From: Thermotogae bacterium
GTDB lineage: Bacteria > Hydrothermota > Hydrothermia > LBFQ01
Reading direction: 5' to 3'
Length of the DNA stretch: 34,698 bases
Assembly: GCA_013153965.1 (NCBI GenBank)
Contig: JAADDJ010000037.1
Coordinates: 1-34,698, forward strand
The translations under genes and the position numbers were made by a program. The notes below the pieces were generated by a model. That model was not told the DNA's origin, ran no database searches, and saw only the letters and a program-made list of their open reading frames with translations. Below, one piece after another: positions 7,302 to 17,164 of this stretch (position 1 is the stretch's first letter; every line of letters starts with the position of its first letter).

Positions 7302-9068
7302 ATGCGCAAGAACGACATAGCGATAAAAATCGCGGGCCTTGCCGGAGATGGGAGCCTGACCACCGGTGAGATGCTCTCAAAGGTTCTTAAGAAGATGGGC
7401 CTTTACGTTACGACCATAAAGGATTTCCCCTCCAACATCCGGGGATTGCCCACCAACATGACCGTTAGGGCCAAGTACGAACCCGTGTATGGACCCAAGG
7501 ATACCGTGGATTACCTGATAGCCTTCCACGTGGCCAACCTGTATAACCACGCCCACGAGGTGGCCCCGGGTGGTGTGATAATTTACGACACATCCGTAAA
7601 GCCCTTCCCCGACGAGCTGCGCAGGGACGACGTCTTCATCTACGAGTTGCCTCTGGCCAAGAAGGCCCGGGAGGAGTTGGGGTTGGAGATAATAAAGAAC
7701 GTGGTGGCCGTGGGCATCGTGGGTGAGGTCCTCGGCTTCAAGCACGACCTCGTCCATAAGGTCATAGCAGCGTGGTTCAAGGAGAAGGGCGAGAAGATCA
7801 TAAAGAAGAACATAGACGCGTACGAGCTGGGGAGGAAACTCGCATCCCAGTACGAGAAGCGGGACGAGTACGTCATTGAGGACCTCGGGGATCCCGGCCG
7901 GGTGATGATGGTCGGGAACGAGGCCATAACCCTCGGAGCTCTGGCCGCCGGGGTCCGGTTTGAGGCGGCCTACCCGATAACCCCCGCCTCCGAGATACTT
8001 GAGATGCTCGCCCTATACCTGCCCCACTTCAACGGGGCCGTGGTGCAGGCGGAGGATGAGATAGCCGCCATAAACTTCGCCTTGGGCGCCGCGTACGCCG
8101 GCGTGCGCTCCATGACCTCAACCTCCGGACCGGGTATGTCTCTGAAGACGGAGACCTTCGGTCTGGCCTACAACAACGAGACGCCCGTGGTGATAGTAGA
8201 TTCCCAGAGGGCTGGACCCTCCACGGGTCTTCCCACAAAGACCGAGCAATCCGACGTTCATCATGCTCTATTCGGGGGACACGGGGACGTCCTTCGGGTG
8301 GTTATAGCCCCCGCCACGTTGGAGGAGGGCTTCTATCTGACGGCGGAGGCCTTCAACTTGGCTGAGAAGTACCAGACTCCCGTCATCATCCTTACGGAGC
8401 AGGCCTTCGCCCAGAATAAATTCACGGCCGAGCCCGATGCCCTTGATCCCTACAAGGTCAAGATAGACCGGGGCAAGCTGATAGACAGGGAGGAGGCCGA
8501 GAGGTACGCCAAGGAGGGCAAGCAGTTCCTCCGCTACGAGATAACCGAGGACGGCGTGTCCCCCCGCTCCATTCCGGGCTACCCCGGAACCTTCTTCAAC
8601 GCGAACTCCAACGAGCACGACGAGACCGGCTACACCACCGAGGACATAGACATGCGCAAGCGGATGGTGGATAAGAGGCTCCGCAAGTACATGACCGCCC
8701 TCAAGAATGGGGACCTCCCCGCGCCGGTCTATTCGGGCGACGAGAACGCCGAGGTCGGCATAATAGGCTTCGGAGCCACCATGGGTCCCATCCTTGAGGC
8801 CATGGAGCAGCTCAAGGATAAGGGGATACCCACCCGCTTCATGCGTCTGCGCACCCTCATGCCCCTCCACGAGGACGAGGTCAGGGACTTCATATCCAAG
8901 CACAGGTACGTCTTCGTCGTTGAGCTCAACGCTCTCGGCCAGCTCTACAACTACCTGAAGCGCTACACCACCGAGCACGACAAACTTCACTCCATAACCA
9001 AGTACGTGGGCCAGATGTTCCGTCCTCGCGAGATAGCGGAGGCCATAGAGAAGGTGGTTAAGGGCTGA
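7302..9068 (+). CDS. korA: 2-oxoacid:acceptor oxidoreductase, fused gamma-alpha subunit
   Basis: This is the large subunit of a ferredoxin-dependent 2-oxoacid oxidoreductase (oxoglutarate or a related acid), which makes acyl-CoA and reduced ferredoxin. Residues 1-185 form the gamma domain (IAGLAGDGSLTTGEMLSKVL, PSNIRGLPTNMTVR). From about residue 200 the alpha domain follows, with AAYPITPASEILEML, QAEDEIAAINFALGAAYAG and TSTSGPGMSLKTE, then the C-terminal domain with FMRLRTLMPLHEDEV. Length (588 aa) fits the KorA/OorA fused form. The thiamine-binding beta subunit and a ferredoxin subunit normally follow, but here the next gene is a peptidase, so the partner must be encoded elsewhere. Substrate is not certain. 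Confidence 0.87.
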   Translation: MRKNDIAIKIAGLAGDGSLTTGEMLSKVLKKMGLYVTTIKDFPSNIRGLPTNMTVRAKYEPVYGPKDTVDYLIAFHVANLYNHAHEVAPGGVIIYDTSVKPFPDELRRDDVFIYELPLAKKAREELGLEIIKNVVAVGIVGEVLGFKHDLVHKVIAAWFKEKGEKIIKKNIDAYELGRKLASQYEKRDEYVIEDLGDPGRVMMVGNEAITLGALAAGVRFEAAYPITPASEILEMLALYLPHFNGAVVQAEDEIAAINFALGAAYAGVRSMTSTSGPGMSLKTETFGLAYNNETPVVIVDSQRAGPSTGLPTKTEQSDVHHALFGGHGDVLRVVIAPATLEEGFYLTAEAFNLAEKYQTPVIILTEQAFAQNKFTAEPDALDPYKVKIDRGKLIDREEAERYAKEGKQFLRYEITEDGVSPRSIPGYPGTFFNANSNEHDETGYTTEDIDMRKRMVDKRLRKYMTALKNGDLPAPVYSGDENAEVGIIGFGATMGPILEAMEQLKDKGIPTRFMRLRTLMPLHEDEVRDFISKHRYVFVVELNALGQLYNYLKRYTTEHDKLHSITKYVGQMFRPREIAEAIEKVVKG

Positions 9069-9106
9069 GGGACAGGATAGAGATAATAATCACTCGGGCC
9101 GGGAGG

Positions 9107-9784
9107 GTGAAACACTACACCCTCACCGGCCTCTCTTTAAAACTGCTGCGACTTGGAATATTCCTCCTCTCCCTCTTCGCCCTCGTGGGTTTCCTCACCG
9201 TGCTGGCCTTCACGCTGGCCTTGATATTCAGGGGTGAGGTCCTGAGGAGGTACTATGATCTCCTGCGGGCCGAGAGAGACCTGGCGGATCTTAGGAGCCG
9301 GTATGCCCGCCTTGAGGAGAGGATGCGGAGGATAGACTCCGCCCTCACGAGCGGCCTTCCCGGAGACACCTTGCCGACTTCAAAGGATTGGGGCTCCCCC
9401 ATACCCATATACATCACCGATTGCGATACCCCGTGCGCTCTTCCCGTATCCGCCCCCATAGTCCGGGGTATGCACGAGGACTATCACACCGGTGTGGACC
9501 TACCCGTGAAGGAGGGAACGCCCGTCTTCGCCACGGCTCGGGGGGTCGTGGTAGAGGTGGGTGAGAATCGTAGGTACGGAAAGTACGTGCGCATAAGACA
9601 CGCGAGGGGGTACGAGAGCCTGTACGCCCACCTGCAGGACGTACTCGTGAAGCGGGGGGATAGCGTCCAGATCGGCCGAATGATAGGCTTGGCGGGAAGT
9701 ACGGGTATGAGCACGGGCCCGCACGTCCATTACGAGGTCTATAAAGACGGCAAGCCGATTGATCCGGTCCTCTTGGCCGAGTGA
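9107..9784 (+). CDS. M23 (LytM) family peptidase, membrane anchored
   Basis: A single-pass inner membrane protein with a periplasmic LytM domain. A hydrophobic helix (LRLGIFLLSLFALVGFLTVL) is followed by a short coiled coil (DLLRAERDLADLRSRYARLE) and the M23 domain with HTGVDLPVKEGTPVFATARG and GPHVHYEVYKDG, which keeps all zinc ligands. The ORF-track start is the GTG at 9107, but in-frame sequence upstream (DRIEIIITRAGRV) looks like the usual cytoplasmic N-terminus of this family. A CTG at 9065 that overlaps the korA stop (CTGA) may be the true start, adding 14 residues. It is followed by lptB, matching a role in envelope growth. Confidence 0.85.
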   Translation: MKHYTLTGLSLKLLRLGIFLLSLFALVGFLTVLAFTLALIFRGEVLRRYYDLLRAERDLADLRSRYARLEERMRRIDSALTSGLPGDTLPTSKDWGSPIPIYITDCDTPCALPVSAPIVRGMHEDYHTGVDLPVKEGTPVFATARGVVVEVGENRRYGKYVRIRHARGYESLYAHLQDVLVKRGDSVQIGRMIGLAGSTGMSTGPHVHYEVYKDGKPIDPVLLAE

Positions 9785-11428: not shown

Positions 11429-12058
11429 ATGCAGAGGGTAAGCCCTACGCGGATGAACCTCCTCATCCGTAAGCGACAGATGAAGATAGCCCAACAGGGT
11501 GCGGACCTCCTACGCAAGAAGAGGGACGCCCTCATGAAGGAGTTCCAAAAGATGCTCAAACCCATAGTCCAAGCCCACAGGGAGTTGGACCGCACGGCCA
11601 GGGAGGCCATCACCTTCCTCTCCTTGGCCCTCGGTAAGGACGGGCCGGAGGCCGTGAGATCCGCCGCCCTGTCCTCCATGGGCAGGCTCAAGGTCAAGAG
11701 GGAGGAGGAGAAGGTGTGGGGCGTGCGCATACCTAAGTTGAAGGCCGAGCACGTCGTTCGCAAGAGCGCGGAGAGGGGCTACACCCTGCTAAGCGTGAGC
11801 GCCCGCATAGAGCTTACGGCGATGGCGTACGAGAGGCTCATGGCCAAGATATTTGAGCTGGTACCCCTTGAGGCCAAGATGAAGAAGATAGGTCAGGAGA
11901 TACGTAAGACCTCCCGGAGGGTGAATACCCTTGAGCAGAGGGTCATACCGCAGCTTCAGGCCGAGATGAGATTCATCCGTCAGGTTCTTGAGGACAGGGA
12001 GAGGGAGGACAAGTTCCGCCTCAAGAGGCTCAAGGCCAAGAAAGAGAAGAAATTCTGA
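11429..12058 (+). CDS. atpD: V-type/A-type ATP synthase subunit D
   Basis: Subunit D is the coiled-coil central rotor shaft of V/A-type ATPases. The N-terminus PTRMNLLIRKRQMKIAQQGA and DLLRKKRDALMKEF are family marks. The two long helices (about 5-80 and 130-200) flank a short middle region, and the C-terminal segment has RRVNTLEQRVIPQLQAEMRF. Length (209 aa) is normal. It is an orphan: none of the other ATPase subunits (A, B, C, E, F, I, K) is in the window, and the stop overlaps the ATG of a large outer-membrane protein (TGATG). The rest of the ATPase operon is presumably elsewhere. Confidence 0.9.
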   Translation: MQRVSPTRMNLLIRKRQMKIAQQGADLLRKKRDALMKEFQKMLKPIVQAHRELDRTAREAITFLSLALGKDGPEAVRSAALSSMGRLKVKREEEKVWGVRIPKLKAEHVVRKSAERGYTLLSVSARIELTAMAYERLMAKIFELVPLEAKMKKIGQEIRKTSRRVNTLEQRVIPQLQAEMRFIRQVLEDREREDKFRLKRLKAKKEKKF

Positions 12059-14847
12059 TGATAGCGCTTCTACTATCCCAGTGGTCTTACGGATACAACA
12101 AGGTTGATTACAAGAATCTGAAGTGGGGCTATCTGGACGGGAAACACTTCAACGTCTATTTCTATCAGGGGGGAGAGCGGTTGGCGGAGTTCGCTCTGGC
12201 GGTTCTGGAGGAGGCCTACGAGGAGTATAAAGACTACTTTCCCGGGGCGGTGGGTAAGAAGGAGAAGATACCGGTCCTCATATACGTGTCCCCCAAGGAC
12301 TTCCAGATGACCAACGTATCCCCATACCTGATACCCGAGGGCGTCGGCGGATTCACGGAGGGTTTCAAGAGGAGGATAGTGGTGCCCTTCGCCGGCTCCT
12401 ACGCCGAGTTCCGGCACGTCCTGCGCCACGAGCTGGTCCATGCCTTCCAGTACTCCTACTCTCGGGGGCTCTCGTCCATGTTCTCGTCGCCTCCACCTCT
12501 CTGGTTCGTGGAGGGCATGGCCGAGTTCCTCTCGGAGGGTTGGAGTGTGCGCACCGAAGCGTACATGAGAGATATGGTCATAAACCTCACCCTACCTCCC
12601 CTGAGCGAGATGGATTACTACTCCGGCTACGTGGTCTATCGCTACGGCGAGGCCTTCTTCAACTACATTAAGGACATCTACGGGCGGGAGGCGGTTCGGG
12701 ACTTCATCAGGTACGGCATGGGAGGGAACATCCGCAGCGCCCTCAAACGTATAACCCACAAGGACCTGCCCGAGATAGACGAGGAATTCTCCATGTACAT
12801 CAAGGAGAGGGTCCTTAAGGCCATGGGGAGGTTCAACTTCCCCGACGATATAAAAAAGCTCACGAGCCGCAGGAGGGACCACTCATTCCTCAACCTCGGA
12901 ACTGCCATCTCCCCCGATGGCTCCAAGGTGGCCTTCATGTCCGACAGAGGAGGGCGCATAGGTATATACGTGATAGACCTCGCCACCCGCAAGGTGCATA
13001 AACTCCTGACGGCCGGACGCTCCCCCGACTTTGAGAACCTCCACATCCTCAAACCCTCCCTCAGCATATCCAAGGACAACCGCCTCGTGACTATATCGCA
13101 GGGGACCTACTCCGACATCCTCCACATATACGACCTCAACACCTTCAAGCGAGTGCGGAAGGTGCCTCTGGACTTTTTGGACGGCGCCCACGGGGCCCGC
13201 ATCTCCCCGAACGGCTCCAAGGTCGTCTTCGTCGGATACGTAAATGGCCGTACGGACCTCTACATATACGACGTGGAGGGAGATTCGTTCCGTAAGATAA
13301 CCGACGACGAGTGGAGCGAGGACGACCCCTACTGGTGGGACGACTCCACCGTCATATACGTCAGCGACAGGAACGACCTCGGGCAGATAGGCTCCTACTC
13401 CATATACCGGATGACTTTGGGAGGGGAGCCGGAGTACGTTTGGGGACGTCGTAAGATACTGCGCTCACCCATCCGGTGGAAGGATGGGGTTGCCTTCCTG
13501 ACCGACTACGATGGGGCGGTCAATCTCTTCCTCCTCCGGGGCGACAGCATCCTGATGCTCACCGATTACTTCACCGAGATAGCCCATCCCGACGTATCCG
13601 AGAATGGTCGCTTGGCCTTCTCAATGATGTGGGAGGGGGGATGGGACGTATTCTTGGCCCCCTACTCCGTTGACCCCAAATATGCGGTGAATCTGATGGA
13701 GGAGGAGGGCTACCCGAAGCCGGATTCAACCGTCTTGGCGGGCGTCGTGAAGCGCCCCTTGGGTTTCACCTTGGGGTTGGATATGGCCTTCGCCAATCTG
13801 GGATACTCCTCCTTCTACGGGACGGTGGGGACGTTCTACATGCTCTTCTCGGACATACCGGGAGATAACTGGATATTTTTGGAGATACTCGGCCAGTCGC
13901 AGAACATAGACAACTCCGAATTCGTATTCGTGTGGTACAACTTCAAGGGGCGGTTGGATAAGGTGGTCGGATTCTCCCAGCTCTGGAACTTCAAGTACCT
14001 GACACCCTACTTCGTCTTTGAGAAACGGCTCTCGGGAGAGTTGGGATTCCAATATCCCTTCACCCGGTACTTCAGAAGTGAGGGATACCTATCCGCCCAC
14101 TACAACACGTGGATAAGGTTCCACGAGGATTCCCTGCCCTACTACTGCGTATTCCAAGCCGTACCCACGCCCGGATGTAAGGTGCCGGAGGTGGTTTATC
14201 CCAAGGGCTACGACGTGGCCCTATCGTTGGTCTATGACGACGTCCTGCTGACCAACTACGGCTCAACGGACGGCGTAAGGTGGAGACTCGTCGGTGCCAC
14301 GAGCCTTCCCAACTCGCAGGTGGATTTCCGGACCCTCTTCTTTGAGGGGATGCTCTTCAGGAGGATAACCTACAGGAGCATATGGGCGAACCGTCTCGTT
14401 CTCGCCCGGAGCGTGGGCAGGCACCGGGACGCCTTCACGGCCGGCGGCCCTTACGGCTTGAGGGCGTACGACCTCTTCTACTTCTTCTACGACGAGAGCG
14501 GCAAGCCCGTGCGCTACCTCATAGGCAACAATCTGGCACTCCTCAACTCCGAGATAAGGTTTCCCTTCTTGGACCGGTTGAAGTTCGGATTCCTGCCCTT
14601 TGAGATAAGGGGCATAAGGGCCTTGGCCTTCTTTGACATCGGGAACGCTTGGTTTGACGAGGATATACCGTTGGATAAGTTTCAGCCCATAAGGGACGGG
14701 GCCCTGTGGGACCTCTTCGCCGACGTTGGGGTGGGCTTGAGGTTGAATCTCGGATACTTCCCCCTGAGACTGGACTACGCCTATCCCACGGATTTCCGCC
14801 GTCTCTATCCGGCCCGGTGGGTCATATCCTTCGGCTGGGACTTCTAA
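12058..14847 (+). CDS. Peptidase MA-like / TolB-propeller / BamA-like outer membrane protein
   Basis: A 929-residue composite envelope protein. Residues 20-270 form a gluzincin-like metallopeptidase domain with HELVH at 124-128 and WFVEGMAEFLSEG supplying the probable third ligand. Residues about 270-560 carry TolB/PD40 propeller repeats (SPDGSKVAFMSDRGGR, SPNGSKVVFVGYVNGRTDLY). The last 370 residues look like an Omp85/BamA-type surface antigen barrel, with FGFLPFEIRGIRALAFFDIGNAWF-type strands and a terminal Phe (SFGWDF). The start is firm, because no ATG/GTG/TTG lies upstream in frame, so the export signal is the very short MIALLLSQ. Protease activity is inferred from HExxH only. Its last 26 nt overlap the convergent GT2 gene. 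Confidence 0.83.
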   Translation: MIALLLSQWSYGYNKVDYKNLKWGYLDGKHFNVYFYQGGERLAEFALAVLEEAYEEYKDYFPGAVGKKEKIPVLIYVSPKDFQMTNVSPYLIPEGVGGFTEGFKRRIVVPFAGSYAEFRHVLRHELVHAFQYSYSRGLSSMFSSPPPLWFVEGMAEFLSEGWSVRTEAYMRDMVINLTLPPLSEMDYYSGYVVYRYGEAFFNYIKDIYGREAVRDFIRYGMGGNIRSALKRITHKDLPEIDEEFSMYIKERVLKAMGRFNFPDDIKKLTSRRRDHSFLNLGTAISPDGSKVAFMSDRGGRIGIYVIDLATRKVHKLLTAGRSPDFENLHILKPSLSISKDNRLVTISQGTYSDILHIYDLNTFKRVRKVPLDFLDGAHGARISPNGSKVVFVGYVNGRTDLYIYDVEGDSFRKITDDEWSEDDPYWWDDSTVIYVSDRNDLGQIGSYSIYRMTLGGEPEYVWGRRKILRSPIRWKDGVAFLTDYDGAVNLFLLRGDSILMLTDYFTEIAHPDVSENGRLAFSMMWEGGWDVFLAPYSVDPKYAVNLMEEEGYPKPDSTVLAGVVKRPLGFTLGLDMAFANLGYSSFYGTVGTFYMLFSDIPGDNWIFLEILGQSQNIDNSEFVFVWYNFKGRLDKVVGFSQLWNFKYLTPYFVFEKRLSGELGFQYPFTRYFRSEGYLSAHYNTWIRFHEDSLPYYCVFQAVPTPGCKVPEVVYPKGYDVALSLVYDDVLLTNYGSTDGVRWRLVGATSLPNSQVDFRTLFFEGMLFRRITYRSIWANRLVLARSVGRHRDAFTAGGPYGLRAYDLFYFFYDESGKPVRYLIGNNLALLNSEIRFPFLDRLKFGFLPFEIRGIRALAFFDIGNAWFDEDIPLDKFQPIRDGALWDLFADVGVGLRLNLGYFPLRLDYAYPTDFRRLYPARWVISFGWDF

Positions 14848-15691
14848 ACGGCAGCTGCAGGAGGCTCTTGAGAGCGATAGGCTCGGGTCCGTGGCGAAGA
14901 CTCTTGAGGGCGTACTTGAGGGCCCCCTTCCTGTCTCCCGAGCGCAACAGCCTACGGGATAGGGCCCCGTAGAAGTGGCGTTTCACCTTCCTATGGAGGC
15001 TCGGCGGAAGATACTCTCCCACTACCTCAAGGAGTCTCTCGTAGTGGAGGGGAGCGTCGGGAGATTGGCGGAGCCGCAAACCGTCGGGGCGGTTCTGGTA
15101 ATGCACCACCCCGGCAAAATTGTAAAATCCAACTTTATAATTTAGGAAGAGACGGAGCGAAAATTCCCAGTCCTCCAGAAGGGTCAGCCTCTCGTTGAAT
15201 CCTCCGAGCTTCAGGAAGGTATCACGTCGCACCATCAGGGCACCCACCTGCGGAATGAACCCATACCCCCCGAAGGGGAAGAGCAGGCGCCTTAGGAGGG
15301 GGCGAGGGCTATCGGCGTAGGCCAGCCCTATAGGCTCCCCGCTGCGGTGGTCTATCACGAGGACGTTGCACACGGACGCGTCGTAGTTTCCGTCCATGAG
15401 ATGGTGGGCCTGCAGGGCTAATCTGCCATCAACGTACTCGTCGTCGTCGTCCAAGAAAGCTACGAGAGGTGCGTCGGCCATCTCCACCAGGCGGTTCCGC
15501 ACGTAGGAGGGGTTGCCCGTGTGGGGGAAGCGCACCACCCGCACGCGCGGATGGTCGTATCTGACCGGTGGGGTACTCCCGTCATCCCCTATCCAAACCT
15601 CGTGCGGGTACCTCTGGCGCAGGACGCTCTCCACGGCCCGCCTTAGGGCCTCGTGGCGGTTGTAGGTGGGGATTATTACGGCTACCTTCAC
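14822..15691 (-). CDS. Glycosyltransferase family 2
   Basis: A GT-A fold glycosyltransferase of 289 residues. It opens with KVAVIIPTYNRHEALRRAVE, then IGDDGS, then the metal-binding DxD region VAFLDDDDEYVDG, and later LLEDWEFSLRLFL, the ED catalytic-base region. It transfers a sugar from a nucleotide donor, probably to a surface glycan. The GTG start overlaps the stop of the propeller gene (GTGA), so the two are co-translated. Its stop lies inside the last codons of the BamA-like gene on the other strand. Donor and acceptor are unknown. Confidence 0.88.
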   Translation of the reverse strand: MKVAVIIPTYNRHEALRRAVESVLRQRYPHEVWIGDDGSTPPVRYDHPRVRVVRFPHTGNPSYVRNRLVEMADAPLVAFLDDDDEYVDGRLALQAHHLMDGNYDASVCNVLVIDHRSGEPIGLAYADSPRPLLRRLLFPFGGYGFIPQVGALMVRRDTFLKLGGFNERLTLLEDWEFSLRLFLNYKVGFYNFAGVVHYQNRPDGLRLRQSPDAPLHYERLLEVVGEYLPPSLHRKVKRHFYGALSRRLLRSGDRKGALKYALKSLRHGPEPIALKSLLQLPFRSPSRRI

Positions 15692-16638
15692 CGGAGGAAC
15701 TTATACACCACCATACCCTTTCTGGAGGCGGCGTAGATGTAGTCCCCCTGCACCACTATGTCAAAGACGTAATCCCCCTTGTATATGGGTGGTCTGTAGC
15801 GGGCCACCTCCACCTTCCTGAAGGGGTCTATCACGCTCACGCCTCCGTCCCCGAAGGCCACGAAGATCAGGTTGTTTATCGCCTTAACGTTTAGGGCGGA
15901 GCCGGGACCCTTGGCCCACCTTATCTCCTTAGGTTGGGACGGGTCGCTCACGTCAAACAGCTGGACCCCATCCCTCCCCAGAGCCACGTACGCCACGCCA
16001 CCCTCCACCTCAACGCTTATGGCAAATCCGCGCGTGGGTGCCTGCCCCACGATCCGGGGCCTGCGCGGGTTTGAGATGTCAAAGACCTTCAACCCTCCTC
16101 TCCCGGCCGCTATGTACGCGTATTTGCCCTTAACGGTGATGCCGCGGGTGAATCCGCCGGTCTTCGTCAGACTTACAAGGCGGGGGCGTGCAGGGTTGGA
16201 GAGACTCAATATGGCGAATCCGGAATCTCCCACGGTCACGTAAAGACGATTCCCCCGCAGGAGGACCTCCATGACCGTGTCGGGTAGCGGAACCGTGTAC
16301 ATCTCCCTGACCATGTTGGGATTGGAGACGTTGAACACGGATAGACCCTTGTAGCCGTGGCCCACGTACAGGTACTTGCCCTTGAGGGCGAGACCGAGGG
16401 GCATGTTGGTGGTGTTGAATGTGGCCTCCCTATAGAGACTCTCGGGCTTGGAGACATCTACGATGTATATACGGCGCAGGGAGGATAGGTACGCGTACCT
16501 GTTGCCAACGGCCAAACCGAAGCACGGGGTGGGCAGCCGGAGGCGCTTGACCAGCGTCATATTGAGGGAGTCGGGCTTGTACTTGTTCGCTCCGAGGGTA
16601 TCCTCCTGCCACATCTGACCGAAAATCAGCAGAATCAT
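15688..16638 (-). CDS. Secreted LVIVD-repeat beta-propeller protein
   Basis: The protein (316 aa) is built of about seven 40-residue LVIVD-type repeats, for example YLYVGHGYKGLSVFNVSNP, YAYIAAGRGGLKVFDISNP and VAYVALGRDGVQLFDVSDP, which would close a seven-bladed propeller. Such proteins are usually extracellular or periplasmic binding modules; no enzyme motif is seen. I moved the start from the ORF-track ATG at 16725 to the ATG at 16638. A TAAAAT box lies 7 nt before it, and the longer form would read through the divergent peroxiredoxin promoter. The N-terminus is then MILLIFGQMW, a very short leader. It is coupled to the GT2 gene. Confidence 0.82.
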   Translation of the reverse strand: MILLIFGQMWQEDTLGANKYKPDSLNMTLVKRLRLPTPCFGLAVGNRYAYLSSLRRIYIVDVSKPESLYREATFNTTNMPLGLALKGKYLYVGHGYKGLSVFNVSNPNMVREMYTVPLPDTVMEVLLRGNRLYVTVGDSGFAILSLSNPARPRLVSLTKTGGFTRGITVKGKYAYIAAGRGGLKVFDISNPRRPRIVGQAPTRGFAISVEVEGGVAYVALGRDGVQLFDVSDPSQPKEIRWAKGPGSALNVKAINNLIFVAFGDGGVSVIDPFRKVEVARYRPPIYKGDYVFDIVVQGDYIYAASRKGMVVYKFLR

Positions 16639-16645
16639 AGGATGT

Positions 16646-16651
16646 ATTTTA
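16646..16651 (-). promoter_or_regulatory. -10 box TAAAAT, leaderless promoter of the propeller gene
   Basis: Minus-strand TAAAAT then ACATCCT (7 nt) and ATG at 16638. It is only 20 bp from the divergent -10 box at 16672. Confidence 0.75.
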
Positions 16652-16671
16652 CCCCCGAGGTATTCTCCCGG

Positions 16672-16677
16672 TAGAAT
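16672..16677 (+). promoter_or_regulatory. -10 box TAGAAT, leaderless promoter of the peroxiredoxin gene
   Basis: TAGAAT then ACACGTT (7 nt) and ATG at 16685. Its expected -35 region overlaps the opposing -10 box. Confidence 0.75.
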
Positions 16678-16684
16678 ACACGTT

Positions 16685-17164
16685 ATGCCGAACGTAGGAG
16701 ATCTGGCACCGGACTTCACGCTCAAGGATGAGTCGGGACGGGACGTGTCCCTCTCGGCTCTTAAGGGTAGATGGGTCGTCCTCTACTTCTACCCCAAGGA
16801 CGATACGCCCGGATGCACCACCGAAGCCAAGGGATTTACGGCTCTCGCCGACGAGTTCGCCCGCCTCGGGGCTGCGGTCGTGGGTGTGAGCCCGGACCCA
16901 CCCCAGAGACACGCCAAGTTCAAGCGTAAGCACGGCCTGAAGGTCGTACTGTTGAGCGATCCCGAGGCGCGGGTCCTGCGGGCCTACGGGGCTTGGGGTA
17001 AGAGGCGGGTCAGAGGTAAGGAGCGGGAGGGGGTGATAAGGAGCACGTACCTTATAGACCCCGAGGGGAGGGTGGCGCACGTCTGGCCCAAGGTCCGGCC
17101 CAAGGGACACGCGGAGGAGGTCCTTGAGGTTCTGAAGGCGCTCGTGGAGGGCCGGAACCCTTGA
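16685..17164 (+). CDS. bcp: Peroxiredoxin, BCP/PrxQ type, probably 1-Cys
   Basis: A thiol peroxidase that reduces hydrogen peroxide and organic peroxides in the cytoplasm. The thioredoxin-like fold shows APDFTLKDESGRDVSLSALK, then YFYPKDDTPGCTTEAKGF with peroxidatic C44. The resolving cysteine found five residues later in E. coli-type BCP (CTTxxC) is Lys here, and no other cysteine is present, so this is a 1-Cys form that needs an external thiol. Arg in the YGAWGKRRVRG region and the C-terminal STYLIDPEGRVAHVW are typical of the family. Length is normal (159 aa). A map gene follows after a short gap with its own promoter. Confidence 0.92.
   Translation: MPNVGDLAPDFTLKDESGRDVSLSALKGRWVVLYFYPKDDTPGCTTEAKGFTALADEFARLGAAVVGVSPDPPQRHAKFKRKHGLKVVLLSDPEARVLRAYGAWGKRRVRGKEREGVIRSTYLIDPEGRVAHVWPKVRPKGHAEEVLEVLKALVEGRNP

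Follow-up and report, generated by a model that had tools for sequence, protein, structure and literature searches.

The open reading frame at positions 12058-14847 (+) of the window, which is the whole stretch of 34,698 nucleotides that was analysed, starts with ATG and encodes a single chain of 929 amino acids. In this chain, a short export signal is followed by a gluzincin-type zinc peptidase domain, then by a TolB/PD40 propeller and, at the C-terminus, by an Omp85 barrel. The limits of the frame are exactly those given in the original prediction, and the three-part architecture proposed there was borne out by Pfam, by a family profile and by invariant HExxH/EGxxE residues. Omp85 proteins normally receive their clients through POTRA domains; here the place of these domains is taken by an invariant metalloprotease and a propeller, an arrangement that is kept by nearly the whole phylum beside a normal BamA. 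The near-universal occurrence of the gene, together with its position beside export-system genes in several lineages, suggests that the protein helps to build or police the outer membrane. The preferred reading, to which a probability of roughly 0.45 is given, is that of a periplasmic metalloprotease anchored in the outer membrane that would check or mature outer-membrane proteins or type IX clients. If a protease is indeed built in at the assembly site, the protein would lend itself naturally as a model, in a single chain, of how outer-membrane insertion is coupled to proteolysis.

Domain layout of the chain

The putative export signal MIALLLS (12058-12078) is very short, and the alignment of N-termini places the probable mature N-terminus at Q8, immediately after it. 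More distant relatives carry export signals of ordinary length that end at the same place. Short signals of this kind, with about six hydrophobic residues, no basic start and often S or A and then Q, include MIALLLS followed by Q (window, 12058-12078), MILLLSYTYIVD and MMLLLMSQ, and MFVLFLA followed by Q is the short signal of BamA; besides the window, examples come from L114 (BamA, a TolB-like protein and other envelope proteins) and from L116 (2694 and 8254-9393). The pattern of M, four to nine hydrophobic residues and [SAGT]Q was found at 5 of 87 N-termini as against 0 of 567 internal methionines in a genus sample, four of the five belonging to the fusion-protein family. The short signal with its Q resembles the Bacteroidetes Q-rule.

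The peptidase domain is of the gluzincin type and spans residues ~12-260 (12091-12837). With the window protein itself, Pfam gave weak matches at residues 116-215 to BSP (8e-5) and Peptidase_M9 (1e-4), both just under the cut-offs, and the NCBIfam matches to HExxH proteins were also weak. The relatives are more informative, as Peptidase_MA_2 (PF13485) matches 45 of 50 family members at E<=1e-3, with a best value of 3.8e-15. The profile searches suggested earlier recovered PD40 and Omp85 directly and the Peptidase MA domain by way of relatives. The zinc-binding motif HELVH lies at residues 124-128 (12427-12441) and is followed by EGMAE at residues 152-156 (12511-12525); H124, E125, H128, E152, G153 and E156 are without variation in an alignment of 89 sequences, so that HExxH and the downstream glutamate that characterize gluzincins are both invariant. 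The spacing HExxH-x(23)-EGxAE agrees with the pattern of gluzincins such as the M1 enzymes, and by the M1/Peptidase MA pattern the EGMAE motif, through E152, is presumed to supply the third zinc ligand. Within the alignment, conservation is highest in the peptidase part: mean entropy is 1.6-1.7 bits for residues 12-200 versus 2.3 bits for the propeller and barrel, and 24 of the 37 columns with at least 98% identity fall within it. This degree of conservation points to a zinc protease that is probably active, though the conserved metal site could be structural.

Structure models added little. The full-length single-sequence model had a pLDDT of 35 and was uninformative, and the model of the N-domain (residues 1-271, made with 6 close sequences) was of low confidence (pLDDT 55). 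The folds nearest to the latter were M1 gluzincin aminopeptidases, matched weakly (best E 1.4e-3, TM ~0.3-0.4), with the peptidase domain of collagenase H further down. No model of usable confidence covered the propeller or the barrel, and zinc geometry was seen in none.

The TolB-like PD40 propeller occupies residues ~271-555 (12868-13722). It is matched by PD40 (1.1e-11), by TolB of NCBIfam (3.8e-17) and, with the family profile, by TolB structures (1.5e-24). The Omp85 barrel follows at residues ~565-929 (13750-14844); Pfam matches Omp85 (PF01103) at residues 736-925 (1.4e-10), and the family profile matches Omp85 structures over the whole barrel (2.4e-19) and BamA chains at 1e-13 to 1e-8. 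Comparison by hhalign showed that the barrel aligns with that of the BamA of the same genome (93.7%, 1.9e-7). Among 50 family members, PD40 was found in 48 and Omp85 in 26, whereas a POTRA domain was found in none of them, nor at the fusion gene in the genome. The counterpart of the loop-6 (V/I)RGF/Y motif of Omp85 proteins is GGPYGLRAYD (14440-14469). The family consensus at this point is LRGY, with R802 kept in 96% and G803 in 91%, and the genus of the window has RAY where the family has RGY. The Omp85 signatures R802, D860 and G862 are retained in the 89-sequence alignment. The protein is neither TolB of the Tol-Pal system (TIGR02800, 62 bits against a cut-off of 343) nor BamA (TIGR03303, 20.5 bits against a cut-off of 297, and no POTRA).

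Distribution and related architectures

The fusion gene was matched in 140 of the 147 genomes of the phylum, candidate division WOR-3, and in 92 of 93 genomes of good quality, usually as one copy; it is single in the genome of the window. The full-length chain is present in all 37 GTDB families (loci extracted from 76 genomes), and a chance or assembly fusion can therefore be ruled out. A few genomes depart from this, with an open reading frame for the N-terminal part only (G076) or with the two halves at distant places in the genome (G105). Those relatives that bear a name come from assemblies of candidate division WOR-3, of which one is labelled Thermotogota, and are 75-82% identical over the full length.

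The same genome encodes its own BamA (on C43), which has POTRA domains and scores 464 bits against TIGR03303, together with another, shorter POTRA-Omp85 protein, a TolB-like propeller as a protein of its own and one more POTRA protein. The fusion protein is thus an addition to these proteins and not a substitute, and a replacement of BamA or TolB was ruled out since separate genes are present. The likely setting of the fusion protein is an extended BAM, as is present in Bacteroidota and in most of the FCB phyla (PMC12611786).

The single-protein form of propeller and barrel had already been described as WD40-Omp85, one of ten Omp85/TpsB subfamilies set out by Heinz and Lithgow (2014, PMC4104836). 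As in the fusion protein, a TolB-like propeller there stands N-terminal to an Omp85 barrel without POTRA. By domain architecture, the chain described here shares three features with this subfamily: the C-terminal barrel, the N-terminal TolB-like WD40/PD40 propeller and the lack of POTRA. It differs in two respects. The main text of that paper gives no peptidase domain for WD40-Omp85 and does not contain the word 'peptidase', and it describes subfamilies other than BamA, TamA and Lipo as scattered and conserved at genus level only, whereas the fusion gene is near-universal in its phylum. The 'Metallo' subfamily of the same text is separate and uses PF00149, a domain other than the peptidase found here. 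What is new here is a protease with invariant residues, conservation across the phylum and linkage to type IX secretion.

Heinz and Lithgow considered WD40-Omp85 in their main text to be reminiscent of a BamA-BamB fusion and suggested a platform (PMC4104836). In line with this, the protein might be an auxiliary Omp85 insertase with a fused BamB/TolB-like platform, in which the peptidase fold mainly binds and catalysis is minor or lost. The retained Omp85 motifs agree with such a role. However, it is the catalytic residues and not the fold alone that are invariant (n=89), in what is the most conserved part of the chain, and the invariance of E125 is hard to explain without catalysis; this makes the auxiliary insertase quite improbable.

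A two-domain relative was found in Salinibacter ruber (WP_118831798.1, 'basic secretory protein-like'). It has the same peptidase (HELVH...EGMAEY) and propeller, at ~32% identity, but at 633 amino acids it stops after the propeller and has no barrel. Its gene lies on plasmid pSR116 (L053:4905-6806) and is followed by one for an S10-type peptidase. This was the only convincing relative on plasmids. No relative was found among 600 pattern matches in viral contigs or in phage records, and a contig scan with the single window protein as query matched only close WOR-3 relatives. The expectation that similar architectures would occur in FCB relatives was confirmed.

Proposed topology and function

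The nearest functional analogue is BepA of E. coli, a periplasmic zinc metallopeptidase that acts at the BAM complex, where it either helps LptD to mature or degrades this protein (PMC8423444). Both have the HExxH of zinc metallopeptidases and a known or predicted place at the outer membrane, with a proposed role in the quality control of outer-membrane proteins. BepA, on the other hand, is a separate soluble protein of another peptidase family (M48), with TPR repeats and no barrel. For topology, a precedent is PlpD, the patatin-like Omp85 protein of Pseudomonas aeruginosa, in which the enzyme domain has been demonstrated to remain periplasmic (PMC11116518). In PlpD, too, the enzyme domain precedes the Omp85 barrel, but it is a lipase and not a metallopeptidase, the superfamily is described as having POTRA, and there is no propeller.

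The proposal of an outer-membrane-anchored protease follows from the topology of PlpD and the analogy with BepA. The protein would be exported and its C-terminal barrel inserted in the outer membrane. The peptidase and propeller would then most likely face the periplasm, where BamA has its POTRA domains, because Omp85 proteins and PlpD set this precedent (PMC11116518). The probable task of the propeller is to dock clients or partners at the barrel, and that of the zinc peptidase is to trim or degrade outer-membrane proteins or type IX clients, either during assembly or when they are stalled. The protein would thus be comparable to BepA acting at BAM, except that a single chain would provide the protease, the platform and the membrane anchor. 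The earlier suggestion of a self-contained outer-membrane quality control device is plausible and is the leading reading.

The other suggestion, surface processing, appears less likely, since the enzyme domain of PlpD, the best-studied Omp85 protein with such a domain, remains periplasmic. Here the barrel would deliver the peptidase and propeller to the surface in the manner of an autotransporter, for the processing of surface proteins or nutrients. Fusions of enzyme and barrel have long been read in this way, and delivery of this kind was considered in the main text of Heinz and Lithgow (PMC4104836). Apart from PlpD, which is the model case (PMC11116518), two points speak against it: the genome already has a type IX system for surface enzymes, and near-universal conservation fits core envelope work better than nutrition. 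A surface protease is accordingly regarded as a poor candidate.

Gene neighbourhood and type IX secretion

Open reading frames around the fusion gene were clustered in 81 loci. A survey of co-occurring genes had been proposed as a check, and it pointed to a more specific role than could be seen in the letters of the window, as type IX secretion genes adjoin the fusion gene. In 9 of 37 families (15 sampled loci), the gene for the type IX sortase PorU lies no more than 10 kb from the fusion gene, on the same strand and nearly always downstream, and several of these neighbours score above the NF033707 equivalog cut-off. Less than one family would be expected by chance; at 1-4% per family, the probability of 9 in 37 is 1e-10 to 1e-5, on the assumption, which does not hold entirely, that the families are independent. 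In families outside the class to which the window belongs, the order is fusion gene, SecD-P1-like lipoprotein, often a glycosyltransferase, PorU and a PorV-like protein, the last being next in line in 7 loci from 4 families. The lipoprotein, a divergent protein whose likeness to the SecD P1 head is C-terminal, has its gene immediately after the fusion gene in 23 loci from 11 families (e.g. L104:11238-12482, L057:6501-7904); its SecD match was clear in only two members tested, and most members have no Pfam match. In the window's class, an M23 peptidase is the close neighbour seen most often (12 loci; 11 families overall), and in five families YajC comes directly after the fusion gene. PorU, the PorV-like protein, the SecD-P1-like lipoprotein, YajC and the M23 peptidase are all export or envelope proteins and support the preferred reading of an anchored periplasmic protease.

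Sequence matches make the type IX secretion system appear phylum-wide in WOR-3. Of the 147 genomes, 145 have a match to SprA, 130 of them above the cut-off, and all 147 have one to the PorU family, 59 of them above the cut-off; the genome of the window has SprA (C59), a PorU-like protein (C44) and 27 matches to type IX sorting tails. No paper turned up in a full-text literature search that combined WOR-3 with type IX secretion.

The linkage raises the question of whether the protein is a dedicated type IX accessory that assembles, matures or releases components or cargo of the system (e.g. PorV, SprA or CTD proteins, with PorU outside). The PorU and PorV-like neighbours agree with this, as do M6-like proteins nearby in 7 families, a tested representative of which has a type IX tail, and the SprA and PorU matches and sorting tails given above. 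The co-occurrence of the system and the fusion gene is in itself uninformative, however, because both are near-universal in the phylum. Linkage to PorU is missing in 28 of the 37 sampled families, including that of the window, and some neighbours are unrelated housekeeping genes. The NCBIfam matches of the fusion protein include no type IX family, and the association is one of gene neighbourhood only. No type IX component is known to have a peptidase-propeller-barrel architecture. Taken as a dedicated accessory, the protein is thus a rather doubtful case. A bolder proposal, and an unlikely one, is that the protein belongs to type IX secretion, or to an outer-membrane assembly line of the FCB type, as a phylum-wide component that had gone unrecognised; a propeller would then stand in for POTRA together with an active metalloprotease that clips or vets clients on their way to SprA, PorV and PorU. 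Because of the linkage to PorU and PorV, a type IX role is open to direct testing in cultured relatives from the FCB group.

Two further neighbours were observed in the window. The gene for V-type ATPase subunit D (11429-12058) shares one base with the start of the fusion gene; no other V-ATPase genes are among the annotated neighbours of the fusion gene, and a functional tie was rejected because this neighbour is seen only in the family of the window. A propeller-type protein with LVIVD repeats is encoded at 15691-16725 (-), one gene downstream and on the opposite strand.
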